NCBI RefSeq assembly: GCF_003206615.1
Contig: NZ_PZJW01000012.1
Location: 186,001 to 250,000 of the forward strand
DNA length: 64,000 nt
From: Salinicola acroporae
GTDB taxonomy: Bacteria; Pseudomonadota; Gammaproteobacteria; Pseudomonadales; Halomonadaceae
Direction of reading: 5' to 3'
Positions 6,291 through 28,025 of this stretch are shown here, in pieces. The position numbers and the translations under genes were made by a program. The notes below the pieces were generated by a model. The model saw nothing but the letters and a program-made list of their open reading frames with translations. It was not told the origin of the DNA and did no database searches. Position 1 is the first letter of the stretch; every line of letters begins with the position of its first letter.

Positions 6291-7757
6291 TCAGCGCCGC
6301 CTGGCGGTCTCCATGAACTCATTGGCCCGCTCGCGATTGGCCCGGGTCACCAGACTGACCGCCACGAACAGCACCACCGCGACCGGCAGCGCCCAGATCC
6401 CCGCCGGCAGCCCCAGCGGTTTGACACCGCTCAGGTAAAGATAGATGACGACCAGGCCGCCGCCGATGATGCTCGCAAGGGCCCCCGCCGCGGTGCCACG
6501 TTGCCAGTAGAAGGCGCCGATGATCGCTGGCACGATCACCACCAGGCCCGTCGAGGCCGCCACGGAGAGCACCGCAATCAGGTTGAGTTGCAGCTCCGCG
6601 AACAGGAAGGCGAGGATCGCGATGATCGGCAACACCCACTTGCCCACCTTGAGCTGCTTCGCCTCGCTGGCGTCGGCGACGACATTGGCATAGACGTCCC
6701 GCGACAGCATCGAGGAGAGCGTCAGCATGATCGAGTCGATGGTCGAGACCGCAGCAGCCAGAATACCCACCATGACGATCACGCCGAGCACGGGCGGCAC
6801 ATGCTCGGAAGCCAGCAGCGTCGGCGTTGCCAGATCCGACTTGGCCAGCTCGGGGAAGGCCACCAGCGCCGAGAAGCCCCAAAGCACCGAGACCACGGTG
6901 TAGATGAAGCCGAAGATCAGAAAGCCGATCAGCATCTGGCGCATCGACTTGAGCGATGACGGCATGAACAGACGCTGGCTGACCTGGGGGTTGGAGAGGC
7001 TGAAGAAGAACCAGGGAATGGTTAGCCCCAGAAAAGTGGTGAAACTGAAAAGGCCGGGCCCGGGTACGCTGAGAGAAGCCGGGTGCTCGCTGGCCAGCGT
7101 ATCGAACAGTTCCGAAAAGCCGCCGAGCGAATGGACCACGAGAAGCGCCACCAATGTCGAAGCGACGATCATGAACAGCGCCTGCAGCGAATCGGTCCAC
7201 ATCACCGAACGGATCCCGGCAATGTAGGAGAACAGGATCGCCAGCAGCGTCGACACGATCACACCGGTGGTGAACGAGATCGCCCCGCCGCTCATGCCCG
7301 CCAGCAGGTAGCCGACGCCTGCCAGTTGCACCGCGGCATAAGGGATCAGAAACACGCAGCTGGCGACGGCGGTCGCCACCGCGACTTTTCCGTTGCCATA
7401 GCGATGACCCAGCATCTCGCTCGGCGTGACGAAACCGAAGCGCTTGCCCACCGCCCAGAACCTGGGTCCGAAGATCGCCACCAGCGAAACGCCGGCGAAG
7501 TAGACGATCTCGAACCCGAACGCCCCGACGCCGCCCGCGTAGGTAAGCCCCGCCAGCCCCACCATCATGAACGCGCTGTAGGTCGTGGCGCTGTAGCTGA
7601 GCGCCGAGACAAAGCCATTCATCTGGCGATTGCCGAGAAAGTAGCCAGACATGTCGACGCCCTTGCCGTTGGTCGCCTCGCCCCGCGACAGGTAGGCGAC
7701 CACCACGGCCACCACGAGATAGATGAGGACCGCCCCCCAGATCAGATTGGTACTCAT
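6291..7757 (-). CDS. Sodium:solute symporter (SSS family)
   Basis: A 488-residue inner-membrane Na+-coupled symporter of the PanF/PutP/ActP superfamily with about 13 helices. The conserved 'LSYSATTYSAFMMVGLAGLTY' stretch (helix 2) and 'GIRSVMWTDSLQALFMI' (about residue 185) are typical. It follows a DUF3311-type small membrane protein after 3 bases, the common two-gene SSS arrangement (compare yhdT-panF), and is the last gene of the nicA operon through a chain of stop-start overlaps. That context suggests uptake of nicotinate, another carboxylate or a pathway product. The substrate is not readable from sequence. Confidence 0.9.
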   Translation of the reverse strand: MSTNLIWGAVLIYLVVAVVVAYLSRGEATNGKGVDMSGYFLGNRQMNGFVSALSYSATTYSAFMMVGLAGLTYAGGVGAFGFEIVYFAGVSLVAIFGPRFWAVGKRFGFVTPSEMLGHRYGNGKVAVATAVASCVFLIPYAAVQLAGVGYLLAGMSGGAISFTTGVIVSTLLAILFSYIAGIRSVMWTDSLQALFMIVASTLVALLVVHSLGGFSELFDTLASEHPASLSVPGPGLFSFTTFLGLTIPWFFFSLSNPQVSQRLFMPSSLKSMRQMLIGFLIFGFIYTVVSVLWGFSALVAFPELAKSDLATPTLLASEHVPPVLGVIVMVGILAAAVSTIDSIMLTLSSMLSRDVYANVVADASEAKQLKVGKWVLPIIAILAFLFAELQLNLIAVLSVAASTGLVVIVPAIIGAFYWQRGTAAGALASIIGGGLVVIYLYLSGVKPLGLPAGIWALPVAVVLFVAVSLVTRANRERANEFMETARRR

Positions 7758-7949: not shown

Positions 7950-8140
7950 TGCGTCACTCCTTTATTGTTGCCGTTGTTATCGAAATCGCTGCTATTGAAA
8001 CCGTTGTCGTTGAGACACTCGTTATCGAAACCACCGTTGGCGAGTGCCGCTATCGAGCCGATACCGCCAGCGTCGGACGGCCACGCTCGCGCCGGCTGAC
8101 GAGGCGAGGCCGTCGAGATCCCGGCGCGCGCGTCGCTCAT
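7946..8140 (-). CDS. Small 64-aa ORF with Asn/Asp/Phe-rich tail, unknown function
   Basis: I do not recognise this protein. Its ATG overlaps the stop of the cytochrome gene (ATGA at 8137-8140) and its stop overlaps the ATG of the next membrane protein (7946-7949), so it bridges the two genes without a gap. Residues 1-35 are Ala/Arg/Gly/Ser-rich; residues 36-60 are an imperfect repeat of Asn, Asp, Gly and Phe ('GGFDN', 'NGFNSSDFDNNGNN'). No signal peptide or transmembrane helix is visible. It could be a real small protein, or merely an open frame that keeps ribosomes moving into the transporter genes. The double overlap is the only strong evidence. Confidence 0.45.
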   Translation of the reverse strand: MSDARAGISTASPRQPARAWPSDAGGIGSIAALANGGFDNECLNDNGFNSSDFDNNGNNKGVTQ

Positions 8141-11127
8141 GGCGACGACGCACCGCGCAGCTCGCCGATCCTTGCCGAAAGATGTTCCCAGGCCGGCTGG
8201 TCCGGGGCGAAACGCGCGCGCAGGTAACTCACCAGCGCGGTCAGTTGGCTGTCGCTGAAATCGGCACGGAACCCGGGCATCTCGCCAGCGCTTCCCCCGC
8301 TCGAACTGGGCGCCACGACGCCGTCGAGGATGGCCTGAATGACATTGTCCGGGCGCGCGCTGTGGAGGTTGGTGTTGAGCGCCAGCGAGGTTTCGGCCCG
8401 GGAATAGACCGGCATGTCACTGCCTTCGTGACAGGAAGCACAAGCGCCGTTGTAGAGTCGCTCTCCAGCATCGAACCCCGGCGGCGTGGCGGCCGAGAGG
8501 GCCAGACGATCGTCGGCGATCTCGGAGGCTTGCGCGGCATCGACCGCGGTCGGCATGAACGACGCCACGTAATGCGCGATGGCGCGCACATCGCTCTCCG
8601 GCAACTCACCCAGCCCCGCCACCACCGGCGCCATGGGCCCGGCGGCAACCCCATGATGCGCCGCCCGGCCCGTGCGGAGATAATCGTACAGCGCGGTTTC
8701 GCTCCACGGCACCGGGGCCTTCGACAGCTGACTCAACGCCGGCGCCTCCCAGCCGTCGACCAGCGCGCCGGCGAGATGATCATCGCCGCGCTTTTCCGCC
8801 CCTAGCGCGTTACGCGGCGAATGGCAGGCGCTGCAATGCCCAGCGCCCTCGGCCAGATAGGCACCGCGATTCCACAGTGCGCTGCGCGTCGGGTCCGGCG
8901 TGAAGGGTTTGGGGTCGTGATACAACAGGTTCCAACCCGCCATCAGTCCGCGGATATTGAAAGGAAAACGCATCTGATTGTCCACGGCTGGCGACGCCAC
9001 CGCCGGTTGCGCCATCAGGTACGCATACAGCGATTGCAGGTCGGTGTCGCTCAGTTTGGCAAACGCCGTATAGGGGAATGCCGGGTAGAGGTGGCTGCCG
9101 TCGCGGCTGATACCGTGACGCATGGCGCGCGCGAAGGCGGCATACGACCAGCGGCCGATACCGGTCGCCTCGTCGGGCGTGAGGTTGGTGCTGTAGACGA
9201 TTCCGAACGGGGTCTCGAAGGCGCGCCCCCCCACGTTGGCCGCGCCACCTTGGCTGGCGGTGTGGCAAACCGCGCAGTCGCCGGCCTCGGCGACCAGCCG
9301 CCCGCGCTCGATGGTCGCCTGCGAGTAAAGATTCGCGGCGGGGCGTGGCACCGGATCGATCGCCGCCTTCCACGGCAACCCCACCGCCGCCGCGCCGCCG
9401 AGCGAGATCAGCGACGCGGCGGCGGCGCCCACCCAGCGCCAACGCCGTCTACCCAAGAATGGCGCCGACCTGGCGGCTCGAGCATCGCCGCCGGTCGACT
9501 CACACAGCCCGGCGCGAATGCGCGCCGCCGTGAAAGGCGGCTCGCGAAAACGCTGCCCGGTGGCGTCGAACAGCGCATTGGCGATCGCCGCCGTGCCCGA
9601 GGCCAGCGTCTGCGCACTGAGACGCAGCGGCATCGAGACCGGGCTGTCGGCGGTGTCGTTCGGCGCCAGGGCGTCCGGCATACGGGCCGGTGGCGCATGA
9701 CCACCAGCATCCAGCGTCAGTGCATCGATCGCTGGTAGCGTCGCACGAGATGCAGCGGCAAACTCGCCCCATTCATCGATGCCATCAGCGTGTCGCAACA
9801 GCAGCGTCGACTCGGGCAGCAACTGCTGACGCAGCGCCGAGGCCAGCACCTCGCGGTCGACCGGTTCGCCGGCATCCTGCCCCACCACCAGGCGGGTCAG
9901 CTGCACGCTACCCGTCACCGGATCGACGCTCACATCGGCGATCCAGGCGGAACGGGTACCACTTTCCCATTCTCCCTTGGCATCCGGCAGATGACTGTAG
10001 GCGAACCCTCGGCCCGTCAGCAGCCCGACGCCATCCTCGGCGGGATCGGGCTTCGGACCAGGGTGCCACGCCGCGCGTTGGCGGACGGCCTCGATCAGTG
10101 CCTGCCCGCGGCGATCATCAAGGTGCCGCAGGCGCAGCTCGAGCGGGTCACTCGCCTGTCGCCGGCTCCATTCATCGAAGAACGACTCTTCGGCGAAGAC
10201 ACGCACGCGATCGCTTGCCCTGCCGCTCTCGCCGCCCTCGTCGTCCTCTCGAACGGGATTGGCATGCCGATAAGGTGAGCGTGCCGGCCGGTCGGCGGGC
10301 GCTCCGGCGGACTCGGTGACGCCGGTCAGCAGCAGCGCCATGGCCGGCGCGGGCCTCGCCGCCCCGTACCCCAGTGCCAGCGCATCCAGTGTGTGCCCAC
10401 CACTGGCCGCCACATCCCACGTCTCGGCCAGGCCCAGCGCGTCGACGTCCCGCTGATAGTCGGCATCCAGCCAGATCGCGACCGGCGCCCCGACCTGCCG
10501 CGAGACCAGCGCCGCGTCTGCGGCGGCATCGTCACAGGCGAGACGGCCAAGGCTTACCCCCTCCTGATCGCTGCGCTCGCTGGAGAGGCCGATCGCGGCC
10601 GGCGCCAGCGAAAGCAGTGCCGCGAGATCGCCACGCAGTGCTTCGGGCGTGGCGGTGTCGACCCACAGGCGGGCCCGGGTCGGAGAGACGTCGGCAATCA
10701 CCCAGCCGGCACGCTCTCCCCAACGCAATCGGTTGGGCCAACCGTAGCGCCGGGACATGCCGTCCGACCGCCGGCCACTGAGCACCGCCCCGCGCCCGCC
10801 CGATCGCTCGCCACCCGCGCCGAGGTGATCGTCCAACAGCGGTGGCGGCGCCCAGTGCAGCCGCAGGCGCCGGGACGCCTGTCGCGCCAGGTCAGGATCG
10901 GCCGCCACCACCGCCACGAAATTGGCGATCTCGACAACGGTGGTGACGGTGGCCCACTCGCCCAGGGAGGCATGATCGATATCCAGCAGTCTCGAGCAGC
11001 CGAAGCGTCCCTCGTGAAACGCGACATCGGGGGGCCGGACGACCGCGGCATAGCGAAGGAGGCCGGAAAGAGCGTCGAAATCGCCGGGAACCGGGAGGTG
11101 TTCGACGGACGAAGCAGGCATGCTCAT
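8137..11127 (-). CDS. nicB: Nicotinate dehydrogenase cytochrome c subunit with degenerate molybdopterin domain
   Basis: A 996-residue protein whose ATG overlaps the nicA stop (ATGA at 11124-11127). Residues about 1-550 resemble the molybdopterin-binding part of NicB/isoquinoline-oxidoreductase large subunits but are shortened and eroded. The closing 'FDATGQRFREPPFTAARIRAGL' is clear, yet the preceding active-site 'GVGE' motif is absent, so catalytic Glu is missing. A hydrophobic segment follows ('WVGAAAASLISLGGAAAVG', about 565-585). After it lies a triheme cytochrome c region with CAVCH (618-622), CSACH (765-769) and CASCH (896-900). P. putida NicB is a single catalytic-cytochrome fusion of about 1,190 residues; here this protein probably passes electrons from NicA to the respiratory chain while the protein at 25709-27964 does the catalysis. 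Confidence 0.8.
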   Translation of the reverse strand: MSMPASSVEHLPVPGDFDALSGLLRYAAVVRPPDVAFHEGRFGCSRLLDIDHASLGEWATVTTVVEIANFVAVVAADPDLARQASRRLRLHWAPPPLLDDHLGAGGERSGGRGAVLSGRRSDGMSRRYGWPNRLRWGERAGWVIADVSPTRARLWVDTATPEALRGDLAALLSLAPAAIGLSSERSDQEGVSLGRLACDDAAADAALVSRQVGAPVAIWLDADYQRDVDALGLAETWDVAASGGHTLDALALGYGAARPAPAMALLLTGVTESAGAPADRPARSPYRHANPVREDDEGGESGRASDRVRVFAEESFFDEWSRRQASDPLELRLRHLDDRRGQALIEAVRQRAAWHPGPKPDPAEDGVGLLTGRGFAYSHLPDAKGEWESGTRSAWIADVSVDPVTGSVQLTRLVVGQDAGEPVDREVLASALRQQLLPESTLLLRHADGIDEWGEFAAASRATLPAIDALTLDAGGHAPPARMPDALAPNDTADSPVSMPLRLSAQTLASGTAAIANALFDATGQRFREPPFTAARIRAGLCESTGGDARAARSAPFLGRRRWRWVGAAAASLISLGGAAAVGLPWKAAIDPVPRPAANLYSQATIERGRLVAEAGDCAVCHTASQGGAANVGGRAFETPFGIVYSTNLTPDEATGIGRWSYAAFARAMRHGISRDGSHLYPAFPYTAFAKLSDTDLQSLYAYLMAQPAVASPAVDNQMRFPFNIRGLMAGWNLLYHDPKPFTPDPTRSALWNRGAYLAEGAGHCSACHSPRNALGAEKRGDDHLAGALVDGWEAPALSQLSKAPVPWSETALYDYLRTGRAAHHGVAAGPMAPVVAGLGELPESDVRAIAHYVASFMPTAVDAAQASEIADDRLALSAATPPGFDAGERLYNGACASCHEGSDMPVYSRAETSLALNTNLHSARPDNVIQAILDGVVAPSSSGGSAGEMPGFRADFSDSQLTALVSYLRARFAPDQPAWEHLSARIGELRGASSP

Positions 11128-11618
11128 TCGCCACCCCCCGGCGCCACACCGGCGGCATCCAGCTCGGCCGCCAGGGTGGCGGCTTCGAGAATTTCGACAT
11201 GGGTTCCGCAACGGCAGAGATTGTATTTGAGCGCGCTGACGATCTGGTCACGTGACGGCTGCGCACAGTGATTGAGCAGCCCCCGCACCGTCATGATCAT
11301 GCCGTTGAGGCAGTAGCCGCACTGGGCCGCCTGGCATTCGACGAACGCGGCCTGCACCGGATCGAGACGACCCGACTCGCCCAGGCCCTCGAGCGTGACG
11401 ACGTCGCGGCCGGCCACGGCCCCCAGGGAGATTACGCAGGAGCGGGCAACACGACCCTCGACCAGTACGCTGCAAGCCCCGCACTGACCCAGGCCGCAAC
11501 CGTACTTGGGGCCATTGAGACAGAGATCGTTGCGTAGAACCTGAAGTAGCGGGGTCGCGGGGTCGAGCGACAGGTGCCGTATTTGGCCATTGACCCGCAA
11601 AGCGATGCTGTCCGTCAT
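11124..11618 (-). CDS. nicA: Nicotinate dehydrogenase small [2Fe-2S] subunit
   Basis: A 164-residue iron-sulfur subunit of a xanthine-oxidase-type hydroxylase that converts nicotinate to 6-hydroxynicotinate. The plant-type ferredoxin cluster ligands are in 'KYGCGLGQCGACSVL' (about residues 39-53), with the further Cys in 'VARSCVI'. The second cluster uses 'CGYCLNGM' and 'LCRCGTH' (about 97-138). Length and motif order match P. putida NicA (157 aa). It is the first gene of the minus-strand operon and is divergent from nicC. The cytochrome subunit gene overlaps it. Homology to small subunits of other ring hydroxylases is high, so the substrate assignment rests on the nic genes around it. Confidence 0.9.
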   Translation of the reverse strand: MTDSIALRVNGQIRHLSLDPATPLLQVLRNDLCLNGPKYGCGLGQCGACSVLVEGRVARSCVISLGAVAGRDVVTLEGLGESGRLDPVQAAFVECQAAQCGYCLNGMIMTVRGLLNHCAQPSRDQIVSALKYNLCRCGTHVEILEAATLAAELDAAGVAPGGGE

Positions 11619-11772
11619 GCCGTTCTCGATTGGAGTTGTTCGTCAATTTGGCACTACCGTGGTGCAAGCTCGAACGCCATCGTACTTTTATAGTGCACAC
11701 ACCAGAAATGACGCTATCTAAACTTATACCATCCCCGCAAAGCGTAAAACAAGCGGCCTTTATAACCCCACA

Positions 11773-11792
11773 AAAATATAAATTTATATTTT
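11773..11792. promoter_or_regulatory. 20-bp perfect AT palindrome
   Basis: The bases at 11773-11792 read AAAATATAAATTTATATTTT, a perfect self-complementary sequence of A and T only. In GC-rich DNA this is unlikely by chance, and it sits in the shared nicA/nicC control region. It may be a regulator or nucleoid-protein binding site, or an easily melted cruciform element. There is no T-run after it and no gene ends here, so a terminator is unlikely. Confidence 0.55.
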
Positions 11793-11851
11793 AACAACAA
11801 TGACTTAATGAAAAAACAGAGCATCCTGTCGAATCTGTAATTTTACGATAG

Positions 11852-13222
<1,371 letters not shown>

Positions 13223-13336
13223 TGCGTTGCCACACGGCCATGGCCCAGGCACCCGGCAACGACAGCCGGGATGCTGGAAACCCCTAGCAGGCCGACGTAT
13301 CGACGCTTCCCAGACGTCCACGAGGAAAGACCTGAC

Positions 13337-14152
13337 ATGAGCACTTATCTCTACGGCGCCAATGTCCATGCCAACGGCATTCGTCAGCACTATCTGCGTT
13401 TCGGCGGCGAACGCGCCGCGACTGGCCAGCCGCTGGTGCTGATTCCCGGCATCACCAGCCCGGCGATCACCTGGGCTTTCGTGGCCGAGCGCCTGGGCGA
13501 GAGTTTCGATACCTACGTTCTCGATGTGCGTGGCCGAGGGCTGTCATCGACCGGCCCGGAGCTCGCCTATGACACCGATACCTGCGCCGCCGACGCCGCC
13601 GCTTTCATTGCCGCGCTGGGGCTCGAGAACGTCATTCTGGCAGGCCATTCGATGGGTGCCCGCTTCGCGATCCGCGCCGCCAGCCGCGGCGTGCCGACGC
13701 TCGACAAGCTGGTATTGATCGATCCGCCGGTCTCCGGGCCAGGCCGGCGCGAATATCCCAGCAAACTGCCGTGGTACGTCGACTCCATTCGCGACTGCAT
13801 CAAAGGCTGCGACCTGGAGACGATGCGCCAGTACTGCCCGACCTGGAGCGACGAGCAGCTAGCGCTGCGAGCGGAGTGGCTGCATACCTGCTTCGAGCCG
13901 GCCATCGTGCAGGCCTTCGAGGAGTTTCATACGGTCGATATCCATCAGGACCTGTCTGCAATCACGGTGCCGACGCTGCTGATCTGCGCGGGCAGAGGCG
14001 GCGTCATTCAGGCGGAAGACAAGGCTGAAATCCAGACGCTTCTTCCGAGCATCCAGATCACCACGGCAGACAACGCCGGCCACATGATCCCGTGGGATGA
14101 CTTCGAAGGTTTTTTTCTCGCCTTCGAGGATTTTCTGGGCCGCCGGCTATGA
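13337..14152 (+). CDS. nicD: N-formylmaleamate deformylase
   Basis: A 271-residue alpha/beta hydrolase that splits N-formylmaleamate into maleamate and formate. ATG 13337 follows a GAGGAAAG site. The nucleophile is Ser105 in 'LAGHSMGARFA', the acid Asp129 in 'LVLIDPP' and the base His about 249 in 'DNAGHMIPWDD'. These lie four residues after Ser101, Asp125 and His245 of P. putida NicD, and the oxyanion region 'IPGITSPA' is present. It follows nicC by 114 bases, and nicE/nicF lie further along the run. A generic esterase is the alternative, unlikely here. Confidence 0.92.
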   Translation: MSTYLYGANVHANGIRQHYLRFGGERAATGQPLVLIPGITSPAITWAFVAERLGESFDTYVLDVRGRGLSSTGPELAYDTDTCAADAAAFIAALGLENVILAGHSMGARFAIRAASRGVPTLDKLVLIDPPVSGPGRREYPSKLPWYVDSIRDCIKGCDLETMRQYCPTWSDEQLALRAEWLHTCFEPAIVQAFEEFHTVDIHQDLSAITVPTLLICAGRGGVIQAEDKAEIQTLLPSIQITTADNAGHMIPWDDFEGFFLAFEDFLGRRL

Positions 14153-14340
14153 CGGCATCGACAGCCTGACAGACACGGCACAACGGCAGCGAAGAGACCA
14201 TCAGAACAACTGCCAACGAGGATTCGATGCCGCCATGAACCGTGTGGCGTCATCGACGAAGACCGCCCGCACGGCGGTCGGCCCGGCGATCGCGTCAGAC
14301 AGCCGATGACAACCAGCAACAACAACGATCGGGAATCGCT

Positions 14341-15651
14341 ATGTCTACCCTCTCCTCGGTGGCCGGCACTGCAGAGGTGTCGCCACACGACGAACTCTAC
14401 CGACGCGTGATCTGGCGTCTGATACCGCTGTTGGGACTGTGCTACCTGACGGCCTATCTCGATCGGATCAACATCGGCTTCGCCAAGCTGCAGATGGCCG
14501 AACAGCTATCGTTCAGCGAGACCGCCTATGGTCTCGGCGCCGGATTGTTCTTCGTCGGCTACATCCTGTTCGAGGTGCCCAGCAACCTGGTGCTGGAGAA
14601 GGTCGGGGCGAGGCTCTGGCTCGCCCGCATCATGATCAGTTGGGGCATCCTCTCCGGCCTGACGATGCTGGTGACCCAGGCCTGGCAGTTCTATCTGCTG
14701 CGCTTCCTGCTGGGCGCGGCGGAGGCCGGATTCCTGCCCGGGGTGCTGTTCTATCTCACCGGCTGGTTCCCCTCCTGGCGCCGCGCCCGCATCATCGCCC
14801 TGTTCATGATCGGCCTGCCGCTCTCCAGTCTCGTCGGCGGGCCGCTATCCGGCACCATCATGACCTTCGCCGACGGCTGGCACGGGCTGTTCGGCTGGCA
14901 ATGGCTATTCCTGCTGGAGGCGATTCCCACGGTCATTCTTGGACTGGTCCTGCTGGTGGCACTGCCCGACAGCCCGCATCAGGCCAGGTGGCTGAGTACC
15001 CACGAGCGGCAGGCGCTGGAATCGGAACTCGCCCGCGACAGCGCCGCCAACCCGAGTCAGCAGACCACTTTTCGCGACGGTTTCTTCAACCTGAAGGTAT
15101 GGATGCTGGGCGGCATCGATTTCGCCATCCTGCTGAGTGCCTACGCCATCGGCTTCTGGCTGCCGACCTTCATTCGCAACGCCGGCGTCAGCGACAGCTC
15201 GACCATCGGCTGGCTGACCTCGATATCCAGTCTGGCCGGGCTGGTCGGGATGCTACTGGTCGGCTTCAGTTCCGACCGCCATCGCGAACGCCGTTGGCAT
15301 ATCATCGTGCCGTTTCTGATCGGCGCGGCGGCGATGTCGCTAAGCACGCTATTCGCCCACAACGCCGTGGCGACCGTGATCGTATTCGCCATCGCATCGT
15401 GCGCGATCATGGGCGCGATTCCGGTCTTTTTCAGCCTGCCGGCAACCTTTCTCAGGGGACAGGCGGCGGCGACCGGATTCGCGCTTGCCTGTTCGCTGGC
15501 CAATATCGCGGGCCTGGTCAGCAATTCGTTGATGGGCTGGATTCTGGATCTCACGGGGAGCAGTGCACTCGCCCTGCTCTGCTTCGCGGCGGCCCTGCTG
15601 TTGGGCTGCCTGTTGGTCCTGGCCTTGCCCAGCCACCAGGTCAACCGCTGA
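14341..15651 (+). CDS. nicT: MFS transporter, anion:cation symporter (ACS) type, probable nicotinate permease
   Basis: A 436-residue twelve-helix transporter. 'CYLTAYLDRINIGFAKLQM' after helix 1 is the signature of the ACS family (tartrate, phthalate, hydroxyphenylacetate permeases). Other typical pieces are 'RFLLGAAEAGFLPGVLFYL' and 'GWFPSWRRARI'. P. putida has a related permease, NicT, in its nic cluster, and the position between nicD and the other nic genes supports nicotinate or 6-hydroxynicotinate uptake. The symbol is by analogy; another aromatic carboxylate cannot be excluded, especially since two more transport systems are encoded nearby. Confidence 0.8.
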   Translation: MSTLSSVAGTAEVSPHDELYRRVIWRLIPLLGLCYLTAYLDRINIGFAKLQMAEQLSFSETAYGLGAGLFFVGYILFEVPSNLVLEKVGARLWLARIMISWGILSGLTMLVTQAWQFYLLRFLLGAAEAGFLPGVLFYLTGWFPSWRRARIIALFMIGLPLSSLVGGPLSGTIMTFADGWHGLFGWQWLFLLEAIPTVILGLVLLVALPDSPHQARWLSTHERQALESELARDSAANPSQQTTFRDGFFNLKVWMLGGIDFAILLSAYAIGFWLPTFIRNAGVSDSSTIGWLTSISSLAGLVGMLLVGFSSDRHRERRWHIIVPFLIGAAAMSLSTLFAHNAVATVIVFAIASCAIMGAIPVFFSLPATFLRGQAAATGFALACSLANIAGLVSNSLMGWILDLTGSSALALLCFAAALLLGCLLVLALPSHQVNR

Positions 15652-15790
15652 ACCGCGTCATGCCACCATCACCAACAGGAGTCGAAGCCCCACCCAACCC
15701 ACGACAACCTTGATTAAACTCATCGACCTCATAGCGCGTCGAGCAGCCCGTTTCTCGAACAACACAACGACAAATCTGGAGAACAGAGCA

Positions 15791-16777
15791 ATGATCAAGC
15801 AACTCATCACCGCCGGCGTGATCGCCAGCAGCCTCGGGCTGGGCTTCTCGGCCCAGGCCGCACCACTCAACGAGAACCTGTGCGGTGGCAGTCCGAATGG
15901 CCTGTGGCAACTGCTGGGTGTCGGCATGGACGGCGTGCTCAAGGCCGAGAATCCGGATTCCAGCGTCACCTATCAGACGTCGTCCGGCGGCTTTGCCAAC
16001 ATCATCCAGATGCAGGGCGATACCTGTGACCTCGCCATCGTCCACGCCGGCGAAGCGATGAAGGCGATCTCCGGCGAACCGCCATTCCCCAAGGCGGTAA
16101 ACAACTTCCGGGCGATCGGCGTGCTGTATAACTGGGCCCCGATGCAGTGGGTCATGACCCAGGACTTCTCCGACAAGTACGGCATCCACTCGCTGCAGGA
16201 TATCGCCGACAAGAAGCCACCGCTGAGACTGGTACTCAATCGCAAGGGCATTCTTCCCTCGATGGTCGGCGAGTCGTCCCTCAAAGCGCTCGGCGTGACC
16301 CCGGACGACATCGAGTCCTGGGGAGGCAGCGTGGTCTACCAGGGCTCAGCGGTCGCCACCGAGCTGGTCCAGAACCGTCGCGCCGACATGTGGGCCAACG
16401 AGACCTTCGTCGGCAGCAGCGCGATCAGTGGCATGGCGGAAAATCGCCCAATGACCTTGCTGGCAGTGCCGGATAGCGTGATCAAGGCCATGGAGGAGGA
16501 GTACGGCGACAAGCCCTATACCGTATCGGCCGATGCCTATACCTGGCTCGATCATCCGGTTCAGACGCATACCGCCGCGGCCATGCTGGTGGCGCCGGCC
16601 ACGATGGCCGACGATGAGGCTTACCGCATCACCAAGGATCTGATCGAACACATCGACGTCATGCAAGGGGTGCACCCGGCGATGAAGCAGCTCACACCCG
16701 AAACCCTGCTCGGGCAATCGGTCGTCGAGTTGCATCCCGGCGCCAAGCGCGCTTACGAGGAGGCGGGTCTACTCTAG
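15791..16777 (+). CDS. TAXI-family TRAP transporter solute receptor
   Basis: A 328-residue periplasmic binding protein with an N-terminal signal peptide (residues 1-22, cleavage after 'SAQA') and the TAXI core: 'GSPNGLWQLLGVGMDGVLKAE' early on, 'TSSGGFANIIQMQGDTCDLAI' and the late 'VHPAMKQLTPE'. The start ATG has GGAGA 9 bases upstream. TAXI receptors feed fused TRAP permeases, and exactly such a permease is the next gene. The usual ligands are C4/C5 dicarboxylates or amino acids; in this operon a pyridine carboxylate such as quinolinate, or maleate/fumarate, is plausible. No ligand can be read from sequence. Confidence 0.85.
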   Translation: MIKQLITAGVIASSLGLGFSAQAAPLNENLCGGSPNGLWQLLGVGMDGVLKAENPDSSVTYQTSSGGFANIIQMQGDTCDLAIVHAGEAMKAISGEPPFPKAVNNFRAIGVLYNWAPMQWVMTQDFSDKYGIHSLQDIADKKPPLRLVLNRKGILPSMVGESSLKALGVTPDDIESWGGSVVYQGSAVATELVQNRRADMWANETFVGSSAISGMAENRPMTLLAVPDSVIKAMEEEYGDKPYTVSADAYTWLDHPVQTHTAAAMLVAPATMADDEAYRITKDLIEHIDVMQGVHPAMKQLTPETLLGQSVVELHPGAKRAYEEAGLL

Positions 16778-17036
16778 CAGCCTTTCGGGCTTGACCGATC
16801 GTCGCGAAAACGACGGATTTTGTGTCAGATTGATCGATCGGATGAGGCGAATAGCCCCGCTATTTAACGAGTCCGAGCGAGTGAAGCTGACCAAAAGCCC
16901 GAGGTTTGCAGCAGATCAGCGTTACGTCCGACAGGCTGCCAGGCGGTCCGCGCGGCGCCGGAAGCCTTGGTGACCGGCGCCGGCGACGCCGCCAATGCCA
17001 CTCGACCTCACGACACCACTCTCATGGGACGACAAC
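16778..17036 (+). other. Gap between TRAP receptor and permease
   Basis: 259 bases without a convincing gene. A short inverted repeat AATAGC-CCC-GCTATT lies at 16850-16864; its stem is only 6 bp and no T-run follows. It may moderate transcription or mRNA stability between receptor and permease, which usually need different amounts. Confidence 0.4.
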
Positions 17037-18971
17037 ATGACTCGCGGTAATCTCACTCGCCTGGCCAACGGCCTGATGTCGACGGGGCGCCGCCGCCAGC
17101 CGCAAGGCATCTTCAGCTGGCTGCTGAAGTGCTATGCAGCCGTCATTGCCGTGTGGGTAATCTGGACGACGATCTTCTCCACGGCGGATGTGCTGGCGCT
17201 GACCATCGTCTTCCTGACCCTGATGCTGGTGCTGGTGTTCTTCCTGATCGCGCCCAACGACAAACCCGGCGCGGAGACGCCGAGCCCGCTCGACTGGGGT
17301 CTGGTGGTTGCCAGTGCCTCCTGCGCCATCTTCTTCATCGGTTCGATCGACGATCTGGCCAACCGGATCAGCCTGTTGACGCCCCTGACCCCCGCACAGC
17401 TCGGCTTCGGTGTGCTGATCACCCTGCTCACCCTGGAGGCCACACGTCGCACCGTCGGTCTTGGCCTGACCCTCATCGCCACCGTTTTCATCATTTACAA
17501 CCTGGCGGGACACCTGCTGTCGGGAATGTTCCGTCACGGCTACCTGCCGTTATCCTATTTCATCGATGTCAACGTCTATACCAGCGACGGGCTGTTCGGC
17601 GTTCCGGTTCGCGTCGCCGCCACCTACGCCTTTCTGTTCGTGATGTTCGGGACCTTTCTCGACAGCGTCCGCGGCGGCGATTTCTTCTTCAATCTCGCCG
17701 CCCGCCTGACCGGACGCTCGACCGGCGGGCCGGCCAAGGTCGCGGTGGTCTCCTCGGCGCTGTTCGGTACGGTTTCCGGAAGCCCCACCGCGGACGTGGT
17801 CACCACCGGCTCCATCACCATTCCCCTGATGCAGCGCCTCGGTTTCTCGCGCAACCTGGCGGCCGGGATAGAAGTCGCCGCCTCCACCGGTGGCAGTATC
17901 CTGCCGCCGGTCATGGGCTCGGTCGCCTTCATCATGGCCGAGTACACCGGCATCGCCTACAGCGAGATCATCATCGCCGCCCTAGTCCCCGCGCTGCTCT
18001 ACTACATGGGCGTACTGGTGCAGGTGCATCTGTACTGCAAGCGCCACGGACTCGGCCAGCTGGCAGCCGAGGCAGTGCCGTCATGGTCTACGGTGATGCG
18101 TGGCGCCTGGCTATTTTTGATCCCGCTGGCGGCGATGGTGATTCCCCTGGTGATCGGTTACTCGCCGACCTTCGTGGCGCTGTTCGGTACCGGCGCGATC
18201 GTGATCTGCTCGCTGTTCAGTCGCCAGCACCGGCTGACACCGAAGTCGCTGCTCGACGCCCTGGCCACCACCACCTTTCGCATGGTCGGCGTCACGGCCG
18301 CCTGCGCCGCGGCGGGACTGGTGATCGGCGGCATCACCATGACCGGTCTCGCGACCAAGTTCTCGTCGATCGTGATGCTGCTGGCCGGCGACAGCACCTT
18401 CATGACGCTGTTCTTCACCGCGATCATCACCATCATCCTCGGCATGGGCATGCCGACACCCAGCGCCTACATCCTGGCCGCCGTGCTGCTCGGGCCAACC
18501 CTGGTCAACACGCTCGGGCTGCCGATGATGTCGTCGCATCTGTTCATCCTCTACTACGCGGTACTCTCGGCATTGACGCCACCGGTCGCCGTCGCGGCCT
18601 ACGCGGCATCGGCGATCTGCGGGGGTAACCCGGTGAGCATCGCGGCACAGGCGGTACGCCTGGCGATCTTCGCCTTCGTGTTCCCGTTCGCCATCGTCTA
18701 CAACCCCAGCATCACGCTGGACGGCACGCTGCTGAGCTGCGGGCTGGAGATCGCCCAGGCCTTCATCGCGACCCTGGCCATCGCCATTGCGACCGAGGGC
18801 TATCTCCGCCAGCGGTTGTCTCCCGGCGTACGACTGCTGCTGATGGCCGCCGGGCTGACCCTGCTCTCTCCGAGCGGCTGGCCGGTACTCGGCGGCCTCA
18901 TCGTGGTTGCCGTCATTGTCGCGTATCAACTGTTCGGCGCTGGCGCTCGTCGCCCGGCAACCCATCCGTGA
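17037..18971 (+). CDS. Fused TRAP transporter permease (4TM + 12TM)
   Basis: A 644-residue inner-membrane protein. The first part (to about residue 150) holds the small DctQ-like segment, and the rest is the DctM-like large permease with 'FGTVSGSPTADVVTTGSITIPLMQ' (about 240-265), 'GGSILPPVMGSVAFIMAEYTG' and 'GMGMPTPSAYILAAV'. All are typical of TAXI-associated TRAP permeases. I use ATG 17037; an upstream in-frame ATG at 16995 has no better ribosome site. It works with the receptor just upstream, driven by a sodium gradient. Its place in the nic run suggests import of a pathway substrate. Confidence 0.88.
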   Translation: MTRGNLTRLANGLMSTGRRRQPQGIFSWLLKCYAAVIAVWVIWTTIFSTADVLALTIVFLTLMLVLVFFLIAPNDKPGAETPSPLDWGLVVASASCAIFFIGSIDDLANRISLLTPLTPAQLGFGVLITLLTLEATRRTVGLGLTLIATVFIIYNLAGHLLSGMFRHGYLPLSYFIDVNVYTSDGLFGVPVRVAATYAFLFVMFGTFLDSVRGGDFFFNLAARLTGRSTGGPAKVAVVSSALFGTVSGSPTADVVTTGSITIPLMQRLGFSRNLAAGIEVAASTGGSILPPVMGSVAFIMAEYTGIAYSEIIIAALVPALLYYMGVLVQVHLYCKRHGLGQLAAEAVPSWSTVMRGAWLFLIPLAAMVIPLVIGYSPTFVALFGTGAIVICSLFSRQHRLTPKSLLDALATTTFRMVGVTAACAAAGLVIGGITMTGLATKFSSIVMLLAGDSTFMTLFFTAIITIILGMGMPTPSAYILAAVLLGPTLVNTLGLPMMSSHLFILYYAVLSALTPPVAVAAYAASAICGGNPVSIAAQAVRLAIFAFVFPFAIVYNPSITLDGTLLSCGLEIAQAFIATLAIAIATEGYLRQRLSPGVRLLLMAAGLTLLSPSGWPVLGGLIVVAVIVAYQLFGAGARRPATHP

Positions 18972-19003
18972 ACACGCCCTGACCACCCACAAGGAGCAAC
19001 GAC

Positions 19004-19876
19004 ATGACCCTCGAAAGACGAACGCCCCCCCAGGCCTGGCAGCTCGACCCGCTGGTGCTGGACGACCAGATCCGTGCCTTCCTGCGCGAAGATATCGGCT
19101 ACTTCGATCTCACCGCGACGCTACTGATCGATGCCGAGCTGCCCGGTCGCTTCGAGATGCGCGCTCGGGAACCGATGACGCTCGCCGGCCTTGCCGCTGC
19201 CGCCCGTGTTTTCACGTTCTACGACGCCAGCATTCAGGTCGAGGTGCTGGCAAGGGATGGCCAGCAGGTCGACAAGGGCACCACCCTGCTCAAGATCGAA
19301 GGTCCGGCGCGCAGCATTCTGACCGCCGAACGCACCGCACTGAACCTGGCCCAGCATCTTTCCGGCATCGCCACCGTCACCGCGACCTATATCGAGCGGA
19401 TCGCCGGTACCCGGGCGCAATTGATCGATTCCCGCAAGACCACGCCAGGGCTTCGCGCCATGGAGAAGCATGCCGTGGCCTGCGGTGGCGGTCGCAACCA
19501 CCGCCTGGGTCTGGACAACGGCATCATGCTCAAGGACAACCACATCGCCGTCTGCGGCAGCATCACCGCCGCCGTCGCCCGCGCCAGGTCCAGCGTGCCG
19601 GTGCTGACCAAGGTCGAGGTCGAGTGCGACCGCTTCGACCAGGTGGAAGAAGCGCTCGCCGCCGGGGCCGACGTGATCATGCTCGACAACATGGCGGTGG
19701 AAGAGATGCAGCGGGCGGTGGCCATGGTCGATGGCCGTGTGCTGCTGGAGGCGTCCGGCGGCGTGCGCCTGGAAACCATTCGCGCCATCGCCGAGACCGG
19801 CGTCGACTTCATCTCGGTCGGACGCATCACGCAGTCGTCGCCAGCGCTGGACATCGGCCTCGACGACGCGGAGTGA
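19004..19876 (+). CDS. nadC: Quinolinate phosphoribosyltransferase (NadC-type, carboxylating)
   Basis: A 290-residue type-II phosphoribosyltransferase: quinolinate + PRPP gives nicotinate mononucleotide + CO2 + PPi. All key stretches look intact: 'TAERTALNLAQHLSGIAT' (about 108-125), 'DSRKTTPGLRAMEKHAVACG' (about 144-163), 'NHRLGLDNGIMLKDNH' (165-180), 'KVEVEC' (about 203-208), and 'DVIMLDN' with 'LEASGGVRLETI'. The conserved Arg, Lys and His residues that hold the two carboxylates are present. Canonical nadC genes sit with nadA/nadB or elsewhere; this one lies 32 bases after a TRAP permease and just before a PhnN-phosphorylase fusion inside the nic operon. It may serve catabolism rather than NAD synthesis. 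Whether a second nadC exists cannot be seen here. Confidence 0.88.
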   Translation: MTLERRTPPQAWQLDPLVLDDQIRAFLREDIGYFDLTATLLIDAELPGRFEMRAREPMTLAGLAAAARVFTFYDASIQVEVLARDGQQVDKGTTLLKIEGPARSILTAERTALNLAQHLSGIATVTATYIERIAGTRAQLIDSRKTTPGLRAMEKHAVACGGGRNHRLGLDNGIMLKDNHIAVCGSITAAVARARSSVPVLTKVEVECDRFDQVEEALAAGADVIMLDNMAVEEMQRAVAMVDGRVLLEASGGVRLETIRAIAETGVDFISVGRITQSSPALDIGLDDAE

Positions 19877-19881
19877 GCGGG

Positions 19882-21942
19882 ATGCGTTCGAACAATCCGC
19901 CGCGCGGCTTACTGGTACTGGTCGTCGGCCCCAGCGGGGCCGGCAAGGATACCCTGATGGAGCGGGCGCTGGCCGATTACACCTGCACCCAGCATGTGCT
20001 CCTGACGAGGCGGGTCATCACCCGTCCTGCCGATGCGGGCGGTGAAGATCATCAGGCGATGAGCGATTCGGATTTCGACGCGGCGCTCGGCGCCGGCGAG
20101 TTCCTGATCCACTGGCATGCCCACGGCCTGCGCTATGCGCTGCGCGCGTCGATTCGCGATGACCTGGCCCGCGGGCGCACGGTGCTGGCCAATGTGTCGC
20201 GCAAGGTCATCGGCGCCATCGCCGGACTGGGGCGGCCGGTTGCCGTGATCGACATCACGGCATCGCGCGAGGTCCGCGCGCGGCGCCTGTCGATGCGCGG
20301 GCGCGAAACCGCCAGCGACATCCTCGCCCGGCTCGAGACGCTGGAATGGCAGCCACCACGAGGCGTAGACCACTATCGGGTCGATAACGATGCCGACCTG
20401 AACACCGGCATCGAACGCTTTCTCATTGCGCTGGCCCGGGCCTGTGGTGGCGACACGCCGATTCGCCACCTGCCGATCGATAGCGGTCCTCGCCTGATCG
20501 GCTTCCTGTCGCTCCGCCACCCGCTGCGCGATGCGATACAGGCACTGCCCACGCCCCGCGTCGAGGTCGATATCCTCGGCCGGCCGCTGGTACTGGAAGT
20601 GCAGTGGGTCGACGACGACCACTGGCTGGCCCCCGATGCCATCGGCCTGGCTCGCGCCACCCTGGCACGGCTCGGGCTGATCGCCGGCATGCCCCTGCAA
20701 CTGCAACCGGCACCACCGCCTGTCGGCGCTGCGGCACTGCGGCGCAAGCTTCGCGGCCAGTCATTGAACGAAGACGAGTTCTTCGGCGTGGTCCACGACA
20801 TCGCCGACAACCGCTTCGACGAAGCGTCGACCGGGGCATTCCTGGCCAGCCTGGCCAATCACCTCGACGACGACGAGATCATCGCGCTGACCCGTGCCCG
20901 GGCGCGGATCGCCCAGACGTTGCACTGGGATCGCCCGATGGTGGTCGACAAGCACTCGATAGGTGGGCTCCCCGGCAGCCGGATCACGCTGATCGTGATC
21001 CCGATCGTCGCCGCGCATGGGCTGACCATTCCCAAGGCGTCGTCACGGGCGATCACCTCGCCGGCCGGCACCGCCGATACCATGGCGCTGTTCGCCGATG
21101 TCGAGCTCGGCCCGGACGACGTTCGCCGCGTCGTCAACGGGGCCAACGGCTGCATCGTCTGGAACGGGCGTCTGTCGCACACGCCCTTCGACGACATGAC
21201 CAACGCCATCGTGCGGCCGCTGGATCTGGACTCGGCGCGGATGAGCGTCGCTTCTATCCTGTCCAAGAAGCTGGCCGCCGGCGTCACCCATCTGGTCGTC
21301 GACCTGCCGACCGGGCCCCAGGCCAAGTTGCCGACCCAGGAGAAGGCGCAGGAGCTGAAGCGGCTGATGGAGTCGGTGGGGGCCGCGCTCGGCATCCGGG
21401 TACTGGCACGGATCACCGACGGCACCCAGCCGGTGGGCAGGGGCATCGGCCCCAACCTGGAAGCACGCGACGTCCTGCAGGTGCTGAACAACGACCCCGG
21501 CGCGCCGCGAGACCTGCGTGACAAGGCGCTCGATTTCGCCGGTGCGCTGCTCGACTGGGCACCGGACGTGAGACCCGGCGAGGGGCGTGCGCGCGCCGAG
21601 ACTCTGCTCGCCAGTGGCGCGGCAAAAGCCCGCTTCGAGCGCATCATCGAGCTGCAGGGTCGGCGTGGACTTCCGGCCGCGCCCGGCCCTTTTCACGCCG
21701 ATATCGTCGCGCCGGCTAGTGGCCGTATCAACCATATCGATATCTGGCGACTCAACTCGATCGCTCGACTCACCGGCGCCCCGGGCGACACACTGGCCGG
21801 ACTCGACCTCGTCGCCCACAAGGGTGAGCAGGTCGACATCGGTCAACCGCTCTACCGGCTATACGCCTCCAGCCAAAGCGCGCTCGACCGGGTCGTCGCC
21901 TTTGCCCGGACCGGCAACGCCTTCGAGCTGAAACGGGAGTGA
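19882..21942 (+). CDS. Fusion: ribose 1,5-bisphosphokinase (PhnN) + AMP-phosphorylase/thymidine-phosphorylase-like
   Basis: A 686-residue two-domain protein. Residues 10-185 are PhnN-like, with P-loop 'GPSGAGKDT' (16-24) and the Arg-rich 'RRLSMRGRET' lid; PhnN makes PRPP from ribose 1,5-bisphosphate and ATP. Residues about 195-686 match archaeal-type AMP phosphorylases of the DeoA superfamily: a small N-terminal beta domain, 'DKHSIGGLPGSR' (from 355), 'SSRAITSPAGTADTM' (from 388), and a C-terminal domain. AMP phosphorylase converts NMP + Pi to base + ribose 1,5-bisphosphate, the substrate of the fused kinase, so the fusion would channel it to PRPP. Start ATG 19882 is chosen; GTG 19873 overlapping the nadC stop is possible. 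With NadC upstream, NaMN is an attractive nucleotide substrate (inference). Confidence 0.85.
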   Translation: MRSNNPPRGLLVLVVGPSGAGKDTLMERALADYTCTQHVLLTRRVITRPADAGGEDHQAMSDSDFDAALGAGEFLIHWHAHGLRYALRASIRDDLARGRTVLANVSRKVIGAIAGLGRPVAVIDITASREVRARRLSMRGRETASDILARLETLEWQPPRGVDHYRVDNDADLNTGIERFLIALARACGGDTPIRHLPIDSGPRLIGFLSLRHPLRDAIQALPTPRVEVDILGRPLVLEVQWVDDDHWLAPDAIGLARATLARLGLIAGMPLQLQPAPPPVGAAALRRKLRGQSLNEDEFFGVVHDIADNRFDEASTGAFLASLANHLDDDEIIALTRARARIAQTLHWDRPMVVDKHSIGGLPGSRITLIVIPIVAAHGLTIPKASSRAITSPAGTADTMALFADVELGPDDVRRVVNGANGCIVWNGRLSHTPFDDMTNAIVRPLDLDSARMSVASILSKKLAAGVTHLVVDLPTGPQAKLPTQEKAQELKRLMESVGAALGIRVLARITDGTQPVGRGIGPNLEARDVLQVLNNDPGAPRDLRDKALDFAGALLDWAPDVRPGEGRARAETLLASGAAKARFERIIELQGRRGLPAAPGPFHADIVAPASGRINHIDIWRLNSIARLTGAPGDTLAGLDLVAHKGEQVDIGQPLYRLYASSQSALDRVVAFARTGNAFELKRE

Positions 21943-21949
21943 TGATGCC

Positions 21950-23116
21950 ATGTCGCGGACGGATGTAAGCGACGATGCCACGGTCGACGCCTTCGGGCGT
22001 CTGATCGGGAGCCTGCTCGATCAGAATCTCGATCAGCGCAAGCCACAGGTGGTGACATTCTGGTGCGGTGCCGGGTTCTCCAAGGCATGGGACCCTCGCT
22101 CTCCCACCGATGGCGAGCTGTTCGCGATCGATCTCGACGATATTCGTGACTTCCCCAACCTGCAGCACTTGATGCACGTCATCGGCTGGGAGGATTACCG
22201 TCATCTCGATTTCGAGCGTTTCAAGAACCTGCGCTACGTGCTCGACATGCAGGTGCGCTATCCCGATATCCGCAACCGGTATTTCGACGATCAGAACCTG
22301 CGCCTGAGCATCAACGAGTTGCGAACGCTGGTCATGCGCCGCTTCACCGCCGCCTGCGACATCCACAACGTCGACGACGCCAGTCTGCGTTTCACCTCGC
22401 CTTACGACAGCGACGGCCAGCGCGCCATCGTCCGGCTGTTCTCCGCACTGGAAGACCGTGCCAGCAGCGCGAACCTGGGCGCCAACTGGCCGCTATACCA
22501 TTTCCTGACCACCAACTACGACTTCACCATCGAGACCATCCTCGAACACGTCTATCGCCAGAACGCGCCGGTCTTTGGTCGTCTCTATCGGGGCGTCACG
22601 CCTCAACGGATCTGTGGCGGCACGATCTGGGAGCATCTGCCACGCACCGTCGACCGCAACGTGATCAAGATCAACGGCGGATTCGAGATTCTGCCGACGG
22701 CTCAAGGCTTCGACTTCGAATATCGCCAGCGCAGCGACGCCGAGATTCGCCAGGAGCCGCCGCTGCTGATCCTGCCATCCCAGGTCCAGGACTACGACGA
22801 GCCCTATTTCCATCAGGTATTCCCCAAGGCCGTGCGCCTGTTGCGGGAAACCGATGTCCTGGTGATCGTCGGATACAGCATGCCGCAGGAAGACTCCCTG
22901 GTGCGCTTCATCCTGCGTCAGCTCGCCGAGAGCCCCTTCGACGCCACCGGCAAGCATGTCTTCGTCATCGATACCAAGAACCACGCCACCATCAAGTCGC
23001 GACTGGAAGAGATGTTCTTCTATCTGCCGCGCACCGGCTGGCCACGCGAGCACTATTTCAGTGGCCGTTTCGAAGATTTCTGTCAACGCGTCGTCGAGCA
23101 GGGCGAGGTGCGGTAA
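21950..23116 (+). CDS. SIR2-like NAD-binding-fold protein
   Basis: A 388-residue protein starting 7 bases after the phosphorylase stop, with GGGAG upstream. It has the SIR2_2 Rossmann elements: 'WCGAGFSKAWDP' (GAG at 40-42, Ser44), 'LTTNYDFTIE' (Asn189, Asp191) and 'VIVGYSMPQEDSLVRFIL' (about 304-321). In active relatives a catalytic His is expected in a 'KLHG'-like motif; here the equivalent looks like 'IKINGG' with Asn242. The protein may therefore bind or sense NAD-like molecules, or work on another N-ribosyl bond, rather than being a standard NADase. Many SIR2-like proteins act in phage defence, but no defence partner is visible and it is embedded in a pyridine-nucleotide operon. Function unknown. 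Confidence 0.75.
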   Translation: MSRTDVSDDATVDAFGRLIGSLLDQNLDQRKPQVVTFWCGAGFSKAWDPRSPTDGELFAIDLDDIRDFPNLQHLMHVIGWEDYRHLDFERFKNLRYVLDMQVRYPDIRNRYFDDQNLRLSINELRTLVMRRFTAACDIHNVDDASLRFTSPYDSDGQRAIVRLFSALEDRASSANLGANWPLYHFLTTNYDFTIETILEHVYRQNAPVFGRLYRGVTPQRICGGTIWEHLPRTVDRNVIKINGGFEILPTAQGFDFEYRQRSDAEIRQEPPLLILPSQVQDYDEPYFHQVFPKAVRLLRETDVLVIVGYSMPQEDSLVRFILRQLAESPFDATGKHVFVIDTKNHATIKSRLEEMFFYLPRTGWPREHYFSGRFEDFCQRVVEQGEVR

Positions 23117-23218
23117 TGCCATGCCCGCCCACTCGACTTGCCACGACCCTGAGCCCGAGCGCAGCTCGCCCGCGTCGGACTCGCAATGCACCCAGGCCTG
23201 TTCACCGAGGAAAGCGCC

Positions 23219-23974
23219 ATGACCCAGCTGTATCGCATCGGCCAGATCGTCCCGAGCTCCAACGTCACCATGGAAACCGAGATTCCCGCGATGCTGACCG
23301 CCCGACAACTCATCCGCCCGGCGCAGCGTTTCACCTTCCACTCCAGCCGAATGCGCATGAAGACCGTGCGCAAGGAGGAGCTGGCCGCCATGGACGGGGA
23401 ATCCGATCGCTGTGCGCTGGAACTCTCCGATGCCCATGTCGACGTGATGGGCTATGCGTGTCTGGTCGCGATCATGTCGATGGGCCCCGGCTACCACCGT
23501 GAATCGCAGAAGCGCCTTCATCAGCGCAGCGTCGAGAACGGGCATCCCACGCCGGTCATCACCAGCGCGGGCGCGTTGGTCGACGCGCTGAAAGTAATGA
23601 ACGCCCGTCGCGTCGTTGTCGTGGCGCCATACATGAAACCGCTCACCGAGCTGGTGGTGAACTACATCCGCGAAGAGGGCGTCGAGGTGCTCGGTTATCG
23701 CGCCCTGGAGATACCCGACAACCTCGATGTCGCCCGCCACGACCCGATGCGCCTGCCGGAGATCGTCGCCGAACTCGACGTCAGCGACGCCGATGCCATC
23801 GTGCTGTCGGCATGCGTGCAGATGCCGTCGCTGGCTGCCGTCTCCAAGGTCGAGGCATTGACCGGCAAGCCCGTGGTGACCGCCGCCATCGCCACCACCT
23901 ACGCCATGCTCAAGGCACTCGACCTCGAGCCCGTCGTTCCGGGCGCCGGCGCGCTGCTCTCGGGCGCCTATTGA
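23219..23974 (+). CDS. nicE: Maleate cis-trans isomerase
   Basis: A 251-residue Asp/Glu-racemase-fold enzyme converting maleate to fumarate, the last step of the Nic pathway. ATG 23219 has a GAGGAAAG site. Two catalytic cysteines are visible: Cys81 in 'GYACLVAIMS' and Cys199 in 'LSACVQMPS', aligning with Cys82 and Cys200 of P. putida NicE. The N-terminal 'GQIVPSSNVTMETEIP' and 'HSSRMRM' are typical of maleate isomerases rather than of arylmalonate decarboxylases. It is followed by nicF after 84 bases. Confidence 0.93.
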   Translation: MTQLYRIGQIVPSSNVTMETEIPAMLTARQLIRPAQRFTFHSSRMRMKTVRKEELAAMDGESDRCALELSDAHVDVMGYACLVAIMSMGPGYHRESQKRLHQRSVENGHPTPVITSAGALVDALKVMNARRVVVVAPYMKPLTELVVNYIREEGVEVLGYRALEIPDNLDVARHDPMRLPEIVAELDVSDADAIVLSACVQMPSLAAVSKVEALTGKPVVTAAIATTYAMLKALDLEPVVPGAGALLSGAY

Positions 23975-24058
23975 ACAGGTTCATCGCCAGCAGGCAAGCC
24001 CGCGGCCGGGCTGGCCTGCTTTCCGCTATTCGTGAAGCCCATTCTCAAGGGGGTCGTC

Positions 24059-27964: not shown

Positions 27965-28025
27965 TCCGGTCACCTCACATCGCGGCCAGGGATGGCTCAG
28001 CTCTCAGGAAGGAACGACGCTCCTC

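Follow-up and report, generated by a model that had tools for sequence, protein, structure and literature searches.

The stretch analysed here (the window) is 64,000 nucleotides of Salinicola acroporae DNA (RefSeq assembly GCF_003206615.1, contig NZ_PZJW01000012.1, positions 186,001 to 250,000 of the forward strand). Judging from its sequence, it encodes a tripartite nicotinate dehydrogenase with separate 2Fe-2S, molybdenum and cytochrome subunits, NicA, NicB1 and NicB2. The NicB2-like protein joins a triheme cytochrome c to a molybdopterin-type domain that appears to have lost its catalytic apparatus (the dead domain; its counterparts in the alignments are called pseudo-domains). The features concerned are, in window positions:

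8137-11127, minus strand: NicB2-like protein (P0001), 996 residues counted from ATG, made of the dead molybdopterin domain, a membrane helix and a triheme cytochrome c
9493-11127, minus strand: dead molybdopterin domain, P0001 residues 1-545, from BLASTP to P0002, the pseudo/catalytic alignment and Foldseek
9379-9441, minus strand: predicted membrane helix, P0001 residues 563-583, from the helix in the model, hydrophobicity and charge
8137-9369, minus strand: triheme cytochrome c region with three CxxCH motifs, from the motifs and the match to 8gy3_A
11124-11618, minus strand: NicA-like 2Fe-2S subunit, 164 residues, with Fer2 and Fer2_2
25709-27964, plus strand: catalytic molybdopterin subunit, NicB1-like (P0002), 751 residues, GVGES intact; the longest open reading frame (ORF), from 25634, has 776 residues

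The 2Fe-2S gene and the 996-residue gene overlap by 4 bases and form a minus-strand operon running from 11618 to 8137. The NicB1-like gene lies on the opposite strand, with 14.6 kb (11127 to 25709) between the two.

The initial annotation, made from the letters alone, had described P0001 as a cytochrome protein that still carries molybdopterin-type sequence but has lost the catalytic Glu, and the 751-residue protein as a separate, intact subunit ending in the same segment; each of these points was borne out. About 545 residues of P0001 align with the catalytic protein (residues 20-541 against 244-767 of P0002, 32% identity over 554 columns, E 2e-49, BLASTP), and both proteins close with the segment FDATG.RFREPPFT. 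Where the catalytic protein has GVGES at 728-732 (Glu731 in the 776-residue ORF, i.e. Glu706 in the 751-residue protein), P0001 reads LRLSAQ. We then compared 34 pseudo-domain rows with 92 catalytic rows. The former set omits duplicates or broken copies (L040, L047, L085 and L101) and loci whose cytochrome part runs off the end of the stretch, both parts being required; from the latter, the unfused outgroups and six duplicate rows had been taken out. All 92 catalytic rows have GxGES, and GxGE stands at that place in none of the 34 pseudo rows, 7 of which carry a lone E in the loosely aligned GxGE column. The missing Glu is nevertheless the smaller loss, because the whole N-terminal part of ~215 residues, with its cofactor-loop motifs, is absent from the pseudo-domains (mean occupancy 0.07 over the 34 rows); in catalytic rows this part contains FNGHVDLGTG and NQGPTIASATIQ. 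The RASWLRG loop (RASWLRGVSALPN) is likewise gone. We take these lost stretches to be cofactor-binding from general knowledge of the xanthine oxidase fold. Retained are the scaffold motifs FAxESFxDE, GRGFAY, VGQD and FDATGxRFRxPPFT. NicB2-type proteins thus appear to have neither the cofactor loops nor the catalytic Glu of the xanthine oxidase family. The NicB of Pseudomonas putida KT2440 is of the fused type, i.e. catalytic and cytochrome parts in one chain, and P0001 is not a protein of this kind, its molybdenum domain being without GxGE and the N-terminal subdomain.

Full-length P0001 searched against Pfam and NCBIfam returned the cytochrome only and no molybdenum domain. A 560-residue fragment matched MoCoBD_2 at only E 0.005 (Pfam), and 6 of 9 members of the pseudo-domain alignment matched MoCoBD_1 (best 8.6e-10). 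The dead domain is detectable through comparison with its paralogue and orthologues, not through a full-length library scan.

The last ~430 residues of P0001 are a triheme cytochrome c, with three CxxCH motifs and homology to solved cytochrome subunits (8gy3_A, E 4e-104). In a model of the full-length protein (predicted local distance difference test score, pLDDT, 72.9; predicted template modelling score, pTM, 0.51), helix 563-583 separates the two parts, and Foldseek matched the cytochrome to 8gy3_A (5.9e-34) and the dead domain to the large subunit 8gy3_C (5.8e-17). The cytochrome part aligned to 8gy3 with Z 39.6 over 400 residues (VIA-align). Modelled alone, the dead domain (pTM 0.79) again found 8gy3_C (1.9e-18) and aligned to its residues 220-771 with Z 22.6 and a root-mean-square deviation of 5.8 over 442 residues, a xanthine-oxidase-type fold as far as a predicted model goes; this model is not independent of the homology, because 12 of the 34 rows in its input alignment were catalytic. 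Basic residues sit on the N-terminal side of the helix, and in 28 of 31 split and 42 of 43 fused proteins the residues leading up to it are more basic than those that follow, which suggests that the molybdenum part is cytoplasmic and that the haems lie on the outer side of the membrane. By eye, no export signal was seen in the NicB1-like protein or in the fused NicB of Pseudomonas sp. BYT-5 (L158), although the haems must be periplasmic. The more distant relatives L043 and L155 carry visible twin-arginine stretches. A loose regular expression for twin-arginine translocation (Tat) motifs matched 6 of 84 catalytic rows; nothing is concluded from these matches. Among phage records there was one match, to the cytochrome only: positions 84788-85306 of MW462191.1, filed as a freshwater phage, encode a diheme cytochrome c 43.7% identical to part of P0001.

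The two genes travel together. Matches were found in 53 of 275 genomes of the family, and the pseudo-cytochrome gene in 45 of these (4 of 18 genomes within the genus); the other 8 have weak matches to separate proteins of another kind. All 45 genomes with the pseudo-cytochrome gene also have the separate catalytic gene, at a total of at least 300 bits (in G527 in two pieces), and in 42 of them the pseudo-cytochrome frame is open over at least 966 residues, the exceptions being G022 (broken), G610 and G640. In Cobetia crustatorum (L040 and L047) this gene lies in three frames and the catalytic gene is open, either because the former is decaying or because of assembly errors. In addition, 80 named loci were fetched via the catalytic alignment, of which 36 are of the split type and 44 of the fused type, including L106, a fused NicB that the contig end cuts before its cytochrome and that had stood among 45 rows labelled split. 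Of the 36 split loci, 33 show an ORF for the pseudo-domain and the stretches of the other three do not. The same pair occurs inside the nic clusters of Achromobacter, Herbaspirillum, Caballeronia, Pandoraea and Burkholderia.

The dead domain is constrained. Its ratio of nonsynonymous to synonymous substitution rates (dN/dS) lies between 0.083 and 0.296 in all 16 pairs, the catalytic gene having 0.055-0.155; the pairs share rows and are therefore not independent. By this measure, purifying selection acts on the domain, but it is about twofold more relaxed than on the partners. Together, co-occurrence and purifying selection argue against both chance and decay. Distances among dead domains retain a partial correlation of 0.35 with those of the catalytic subunit after removal of the cytochrome and NicA (1 of 2,000 permutations).

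Trees place the pseudo-domains inside the NicB family, together with fused and separate catalytic domains, as one clade (22 of 22 rows, support 99.9; in a separate tree 9 of 9 rows, 99.4). In a tree of catalytic plus cytochrome sequences (34 rows), all 18 split rows form one clade nested among fused NicB (Shimodaira-Hasegawa-like approximate likelihood ratio test, 96.7), and a single fused clade was marginally rejected (p-value of the approximately unbiased test, p-AU, 0.048); catalytic sequences alone gave the split clade a support of 94.1. In an earlier catalytic tree, which did not include Pseudomonas and Azospirillum, the fused rows formed one clade (99) and the split rows stayed undecided (p-AU 0.486), and another cytochrome tree left the backbone without resolution. 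The nicA gene remains adjacent to the pseudo-cytochrome gene in the nicA-nicB order, which makes it look as though the pseudo-cytochrome gene has inherited the place of nicB and the catalytic gene is the copy that moved. The position of the pseudo-domains inside the family and the kept gene order make it probable that a fused NicB underwent duplication, after which the cytochrome was lost from one copy and catalysis from the other. This agrees with the initial annotation, which had suspected a duplication of a NicB-like ancestor followed by division of labour and had proposed a phylogeny of both molybdopterin regions: the tree placement, the adjacency to nicA and the 45 of 45 co-occurrence all point that way, and NicC, NicD, NicE, NicF and MarR genes around both genes put the two in one pathway. 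Its word for the domain, eroded, holds for the sequence, with its lost loops and N-terminal part, and does not hold in the sense of free decay, given the dN/dS values.

Sequence shows the homology of the two proteins, what the dead domain has lost, how the genes co-occur and keep their synteny, the purifying selection and the predicted fold; on these grounds we consider it probable that NicA, NicB1 and NicB2 make up one nicotinate dehydrogenase in which NicB2 descends from a fused NicB and its dead domain clamps the partners. After the duplication, the second copy of the fused NicB would have retained catalysis and dropped its cytochrome, while the first would have dropped the N-terminal cofactor subdomain and the active-site loops, the rest of its fold staying joined to the membrane helix. 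NicB1 would carry the molybdenum cofactor and hydroxylate nicotinate to 6-hydroxynicotinate, NicA would relay the electrons through two [2Fe-2S] clusters, and the cytochrome part of NicB2 would pass them to the respiratory chain. Old NicB contact surfaces are most likely retained in the dead domain, which, on the cytoplasmic side, would hold NicB1 and NicA at the membrane beside the cytochrome. Docking is favoured because of the constraint on the domain, the retained C-terminal part, residues ~309-541, adjoining the helix and the residual distance correlation with NicB1, and it fits the membrane tether. A variant that we regard as possible, with less confidence, is that NicB2 is a conserved pseudo-molybdoenzyme, a cofactor-less paralogue that pairs with the catalytic subunit in both gamma- and betaproteobacteria and holds it on the cytoplasmic face of the membrane. 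Such a NicB2 might also act like a dead activating partner, through which the catalytic subunit is turned on only in the presence of the cytochrome.

Several observations count against docking and against the history just given. The dead domain evolves faster than both the catalytic gene and the cytochrome in 16 of 16 pairs. Its length falls from about 545 residues in halomonads to ~340-360 in Pandoraea. In three loci (L154, L182 and L184) nicA, the catalytic gene and the cytochrome gene form a contiguous, unfused operon, at 50-57% identity, that has no pseudo-domain, so an unfused cytochrome is probably usable without one, and the fused state may have arisen or disappeared on more than one occasion. 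The distance correlation of the dead domain is highest with its own fused cytochrome (0.685), and simple linkage would explain much of it. The pseudo clade has very long branches, which drew long-branch warnings, and its attachment as sister to the split rows, the fused rows or both gave p-AU values of 0.246, 0.384 and 0.279. In the tree of the cytochrome alone the gamma and beta splits part, joining them being not rejected (p-AU 0.077). Finally, docking is itself an inference.

The first three of these points are also those that speak for the dead domain being a relic or topology spacer, without a binding role, kept as the cytoplasmic N-terminus of an anchored cytochrome and slowly trimmed (that the unfused operons work is itself an assumption). 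We hold this to be somewhat unlikely, given dN/dS values of at most 0.30 in every pair, scaffold motifs kept over gamma and beta lineages, and the open frames in 42 of the 45 family genomes.

The parting of gamma and beta rows in the cytochrome tree would follow if the two lineages had split NicB separately, or if a catalytic gene from outside had replaced the fused one. This too seems unlikely, a shade more so than the relic: the catalytic-only and concatenated trees join the split rows, the cytochrome tree does not reject joining them, and all pseudo-domains form one clade with the N-terminal loss in common. A single origin of the gamma and beta splits is thus favoured, though not proven.

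The second domain could also be functional in some other way, holding NicA or a cofactor, or activating NicB1 as a regulatory dead partner. In its favour are the pairing of nicA with the NicB2-like gene and, in excerpts of PMC6403243, a report that the enzyme of Alcaligenes faecalis JQ135 has two subunits containing molybdenum. Since the pseudo rows are without the N-terminal cofactor subdomain, RASWLRG and GxGE, normal cofactor binding is unlikely, and we regard this explanation as improbable. That P0001 and P0002 are parts of distinct enzymes acting on different substrates, as genes 14.6 kb apart on opposite strands might suggest, is highly improbable in view of their co-occurrence in 45 of 45 genomes, their common nic cluster and the lack of another close molybdenum partner in the genome (next match 59.5 bits, against 1763 and 164).

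The nic gene cluster is also the reason for taking nicotinate as the probable substrate of the three-part enzyme. The other genes of the cluster and its surroundings are:

11861-13222, plus strand: NicC-like 6-hydroxynicotinate 3-monooxygenase (5eow_A, E 6.8e-172)
13271-14152, plus strand: NicD-like alpha/beta hydrolase (Pfam; 65% to an alpha/beta hydrolase in the nic cluster of Pseudomonas BYT-5)
23186-23974, plus strand: NicE-like maleate isomerase (4fq7_A, E 1.5e-108)
24032-24685, plus strand: NicF-like isochorismatase-fold amidohydrolase, cluster position being among the evidence
24837-25343, minus strand: MarR regulator in the NicR/BpsR position
27735-28997, plus strand: XdhC/CoxI maturation factor (ORF; true start probably near 27965)
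28864-29598, plus strand: MobA-like nucleotidyltransferase
6291-7757, minus strand: SSF-family transporter, downstream of P0001 and conserved in halomonads
41506-42531, minus strand: possible NicX (2,5-dihydroxypyridine dioxygenase), 46% to NicX of Pseudomonas BYT-5, outside the core cluster

Within the window, NicC, NicE, NicF, NicD-like and MarR genes surround the pair, and most genes of the nic set also accompany it in halomonads, Herbaspirillum, Caballeronia, Pandoraea and Achromobacter. The NicX homologue, at 46% only, lies about 14 kb beyond the core cluster; NicX is within the same stretch in 18 other fetched loci (some of them one genome under two ids), with a partial and weaker match in L036. 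The ORF at 21950-23116 was considered as NicX and set aside, having no PDB match; it encodes a 388-residue protein with a weak SIR2_2 match (4.9e-6) and is kept in other Salinicola nic clusters. At 18907-21942, inside the Salinicola nic cluster and adjoining TAXI-TRAP transporter genes, a single ORF combines a PhnN-like kinase with a thymidine/AMP-phosphorylase-like domain. The nic clusters of Marinobacter azerbaijanicus (L048) and Billgrantia lactosivorans (L062), members of different families, are 98-100% identical in protein, owing either to recent transfer or to a contaminated assembly.

The three-part enzyme and a second molybdenum-type part are already in print. In the excerpts of the papers on which we draw here, the hydroxylase of Burkholderia gladioli and Bordetella consists of three parts, NicA, NicB1 and NicB2 (PMC10269826), the enzyme of A. 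faecalis JQ135 has three components, two of them molybdenum-containing subunits (PMC6403243, citing a 2018 paper), and those of the review PMC10331938 do not give such a split. The literature searched yielded no statement that the second molybdenum part is without the cofactor subdomain and the catalytic residues and is maintained by selection; one may exist elsewhere. If correct, our reading would explain descriptions of two molybdenum subunits although one of them appears unable to bind the cofactor, and would provide a graded series (fused; split, the dead domain being full-length; split, the dead domain being shortened; fully unfused) of a fused redox enzyme coming apart. Annotators should then not call NicB2-type proteins catalytic. 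The interpretation of the dead domain would be of specialist interest if docking or activation were shown.

Among known systems, the trypanosome prozyme (PMC5201418) is likewise a dead paralogue kept beside a live one; it belongs to an unrelated enzyme, and the partner activation described in the excerpts is reported there and not here. The IorAB-like deoxyribose dehydrogenase (excerpts of PMC6365646) also has 2Fe-2S and molybdenum subunits with a membrane-anchored cytochrome c, and needs mobA, but it is unfused and its molybdenum subunit carries a potential Tat signal and is thought to be periplasmic. Each half of P0001 has its match in a different subunit of the Gluconobacter membrane aldehyde dehydrogenase 8gy3, in which the cytochrome and catalytic chains are separate, with no dead copy among the matched chains. 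The fused NicAB of Pseudomonas sp. BYT-5 shares NicA, the molybdenum domain, the helix and the three haems with the system described here (57.5% identity in the catalytic part, 51% in the cytochrome), but has one NicB of 1195 residues with a live molybdenum domain instead of two genes. Closest are the tripartite NicA/NicB1/NicB2 enzymes of Bordetella, B. gladioli, Delftia and JQ135, likened by description and not by sequence, which have three components as here and whose second molybdenum part is not described, in the excerpts concerned, as dead or cofactor-less. In Delftia the order is marR, nicT, nicB2, nicA, nicC, nicE, nicD, nicX, nicF, nicB1 (excerpt of PMC4572682), and its nicB2/nicA/nicB1 arrangement matches, by gene order, that of the betaproteobacterial loci found here.

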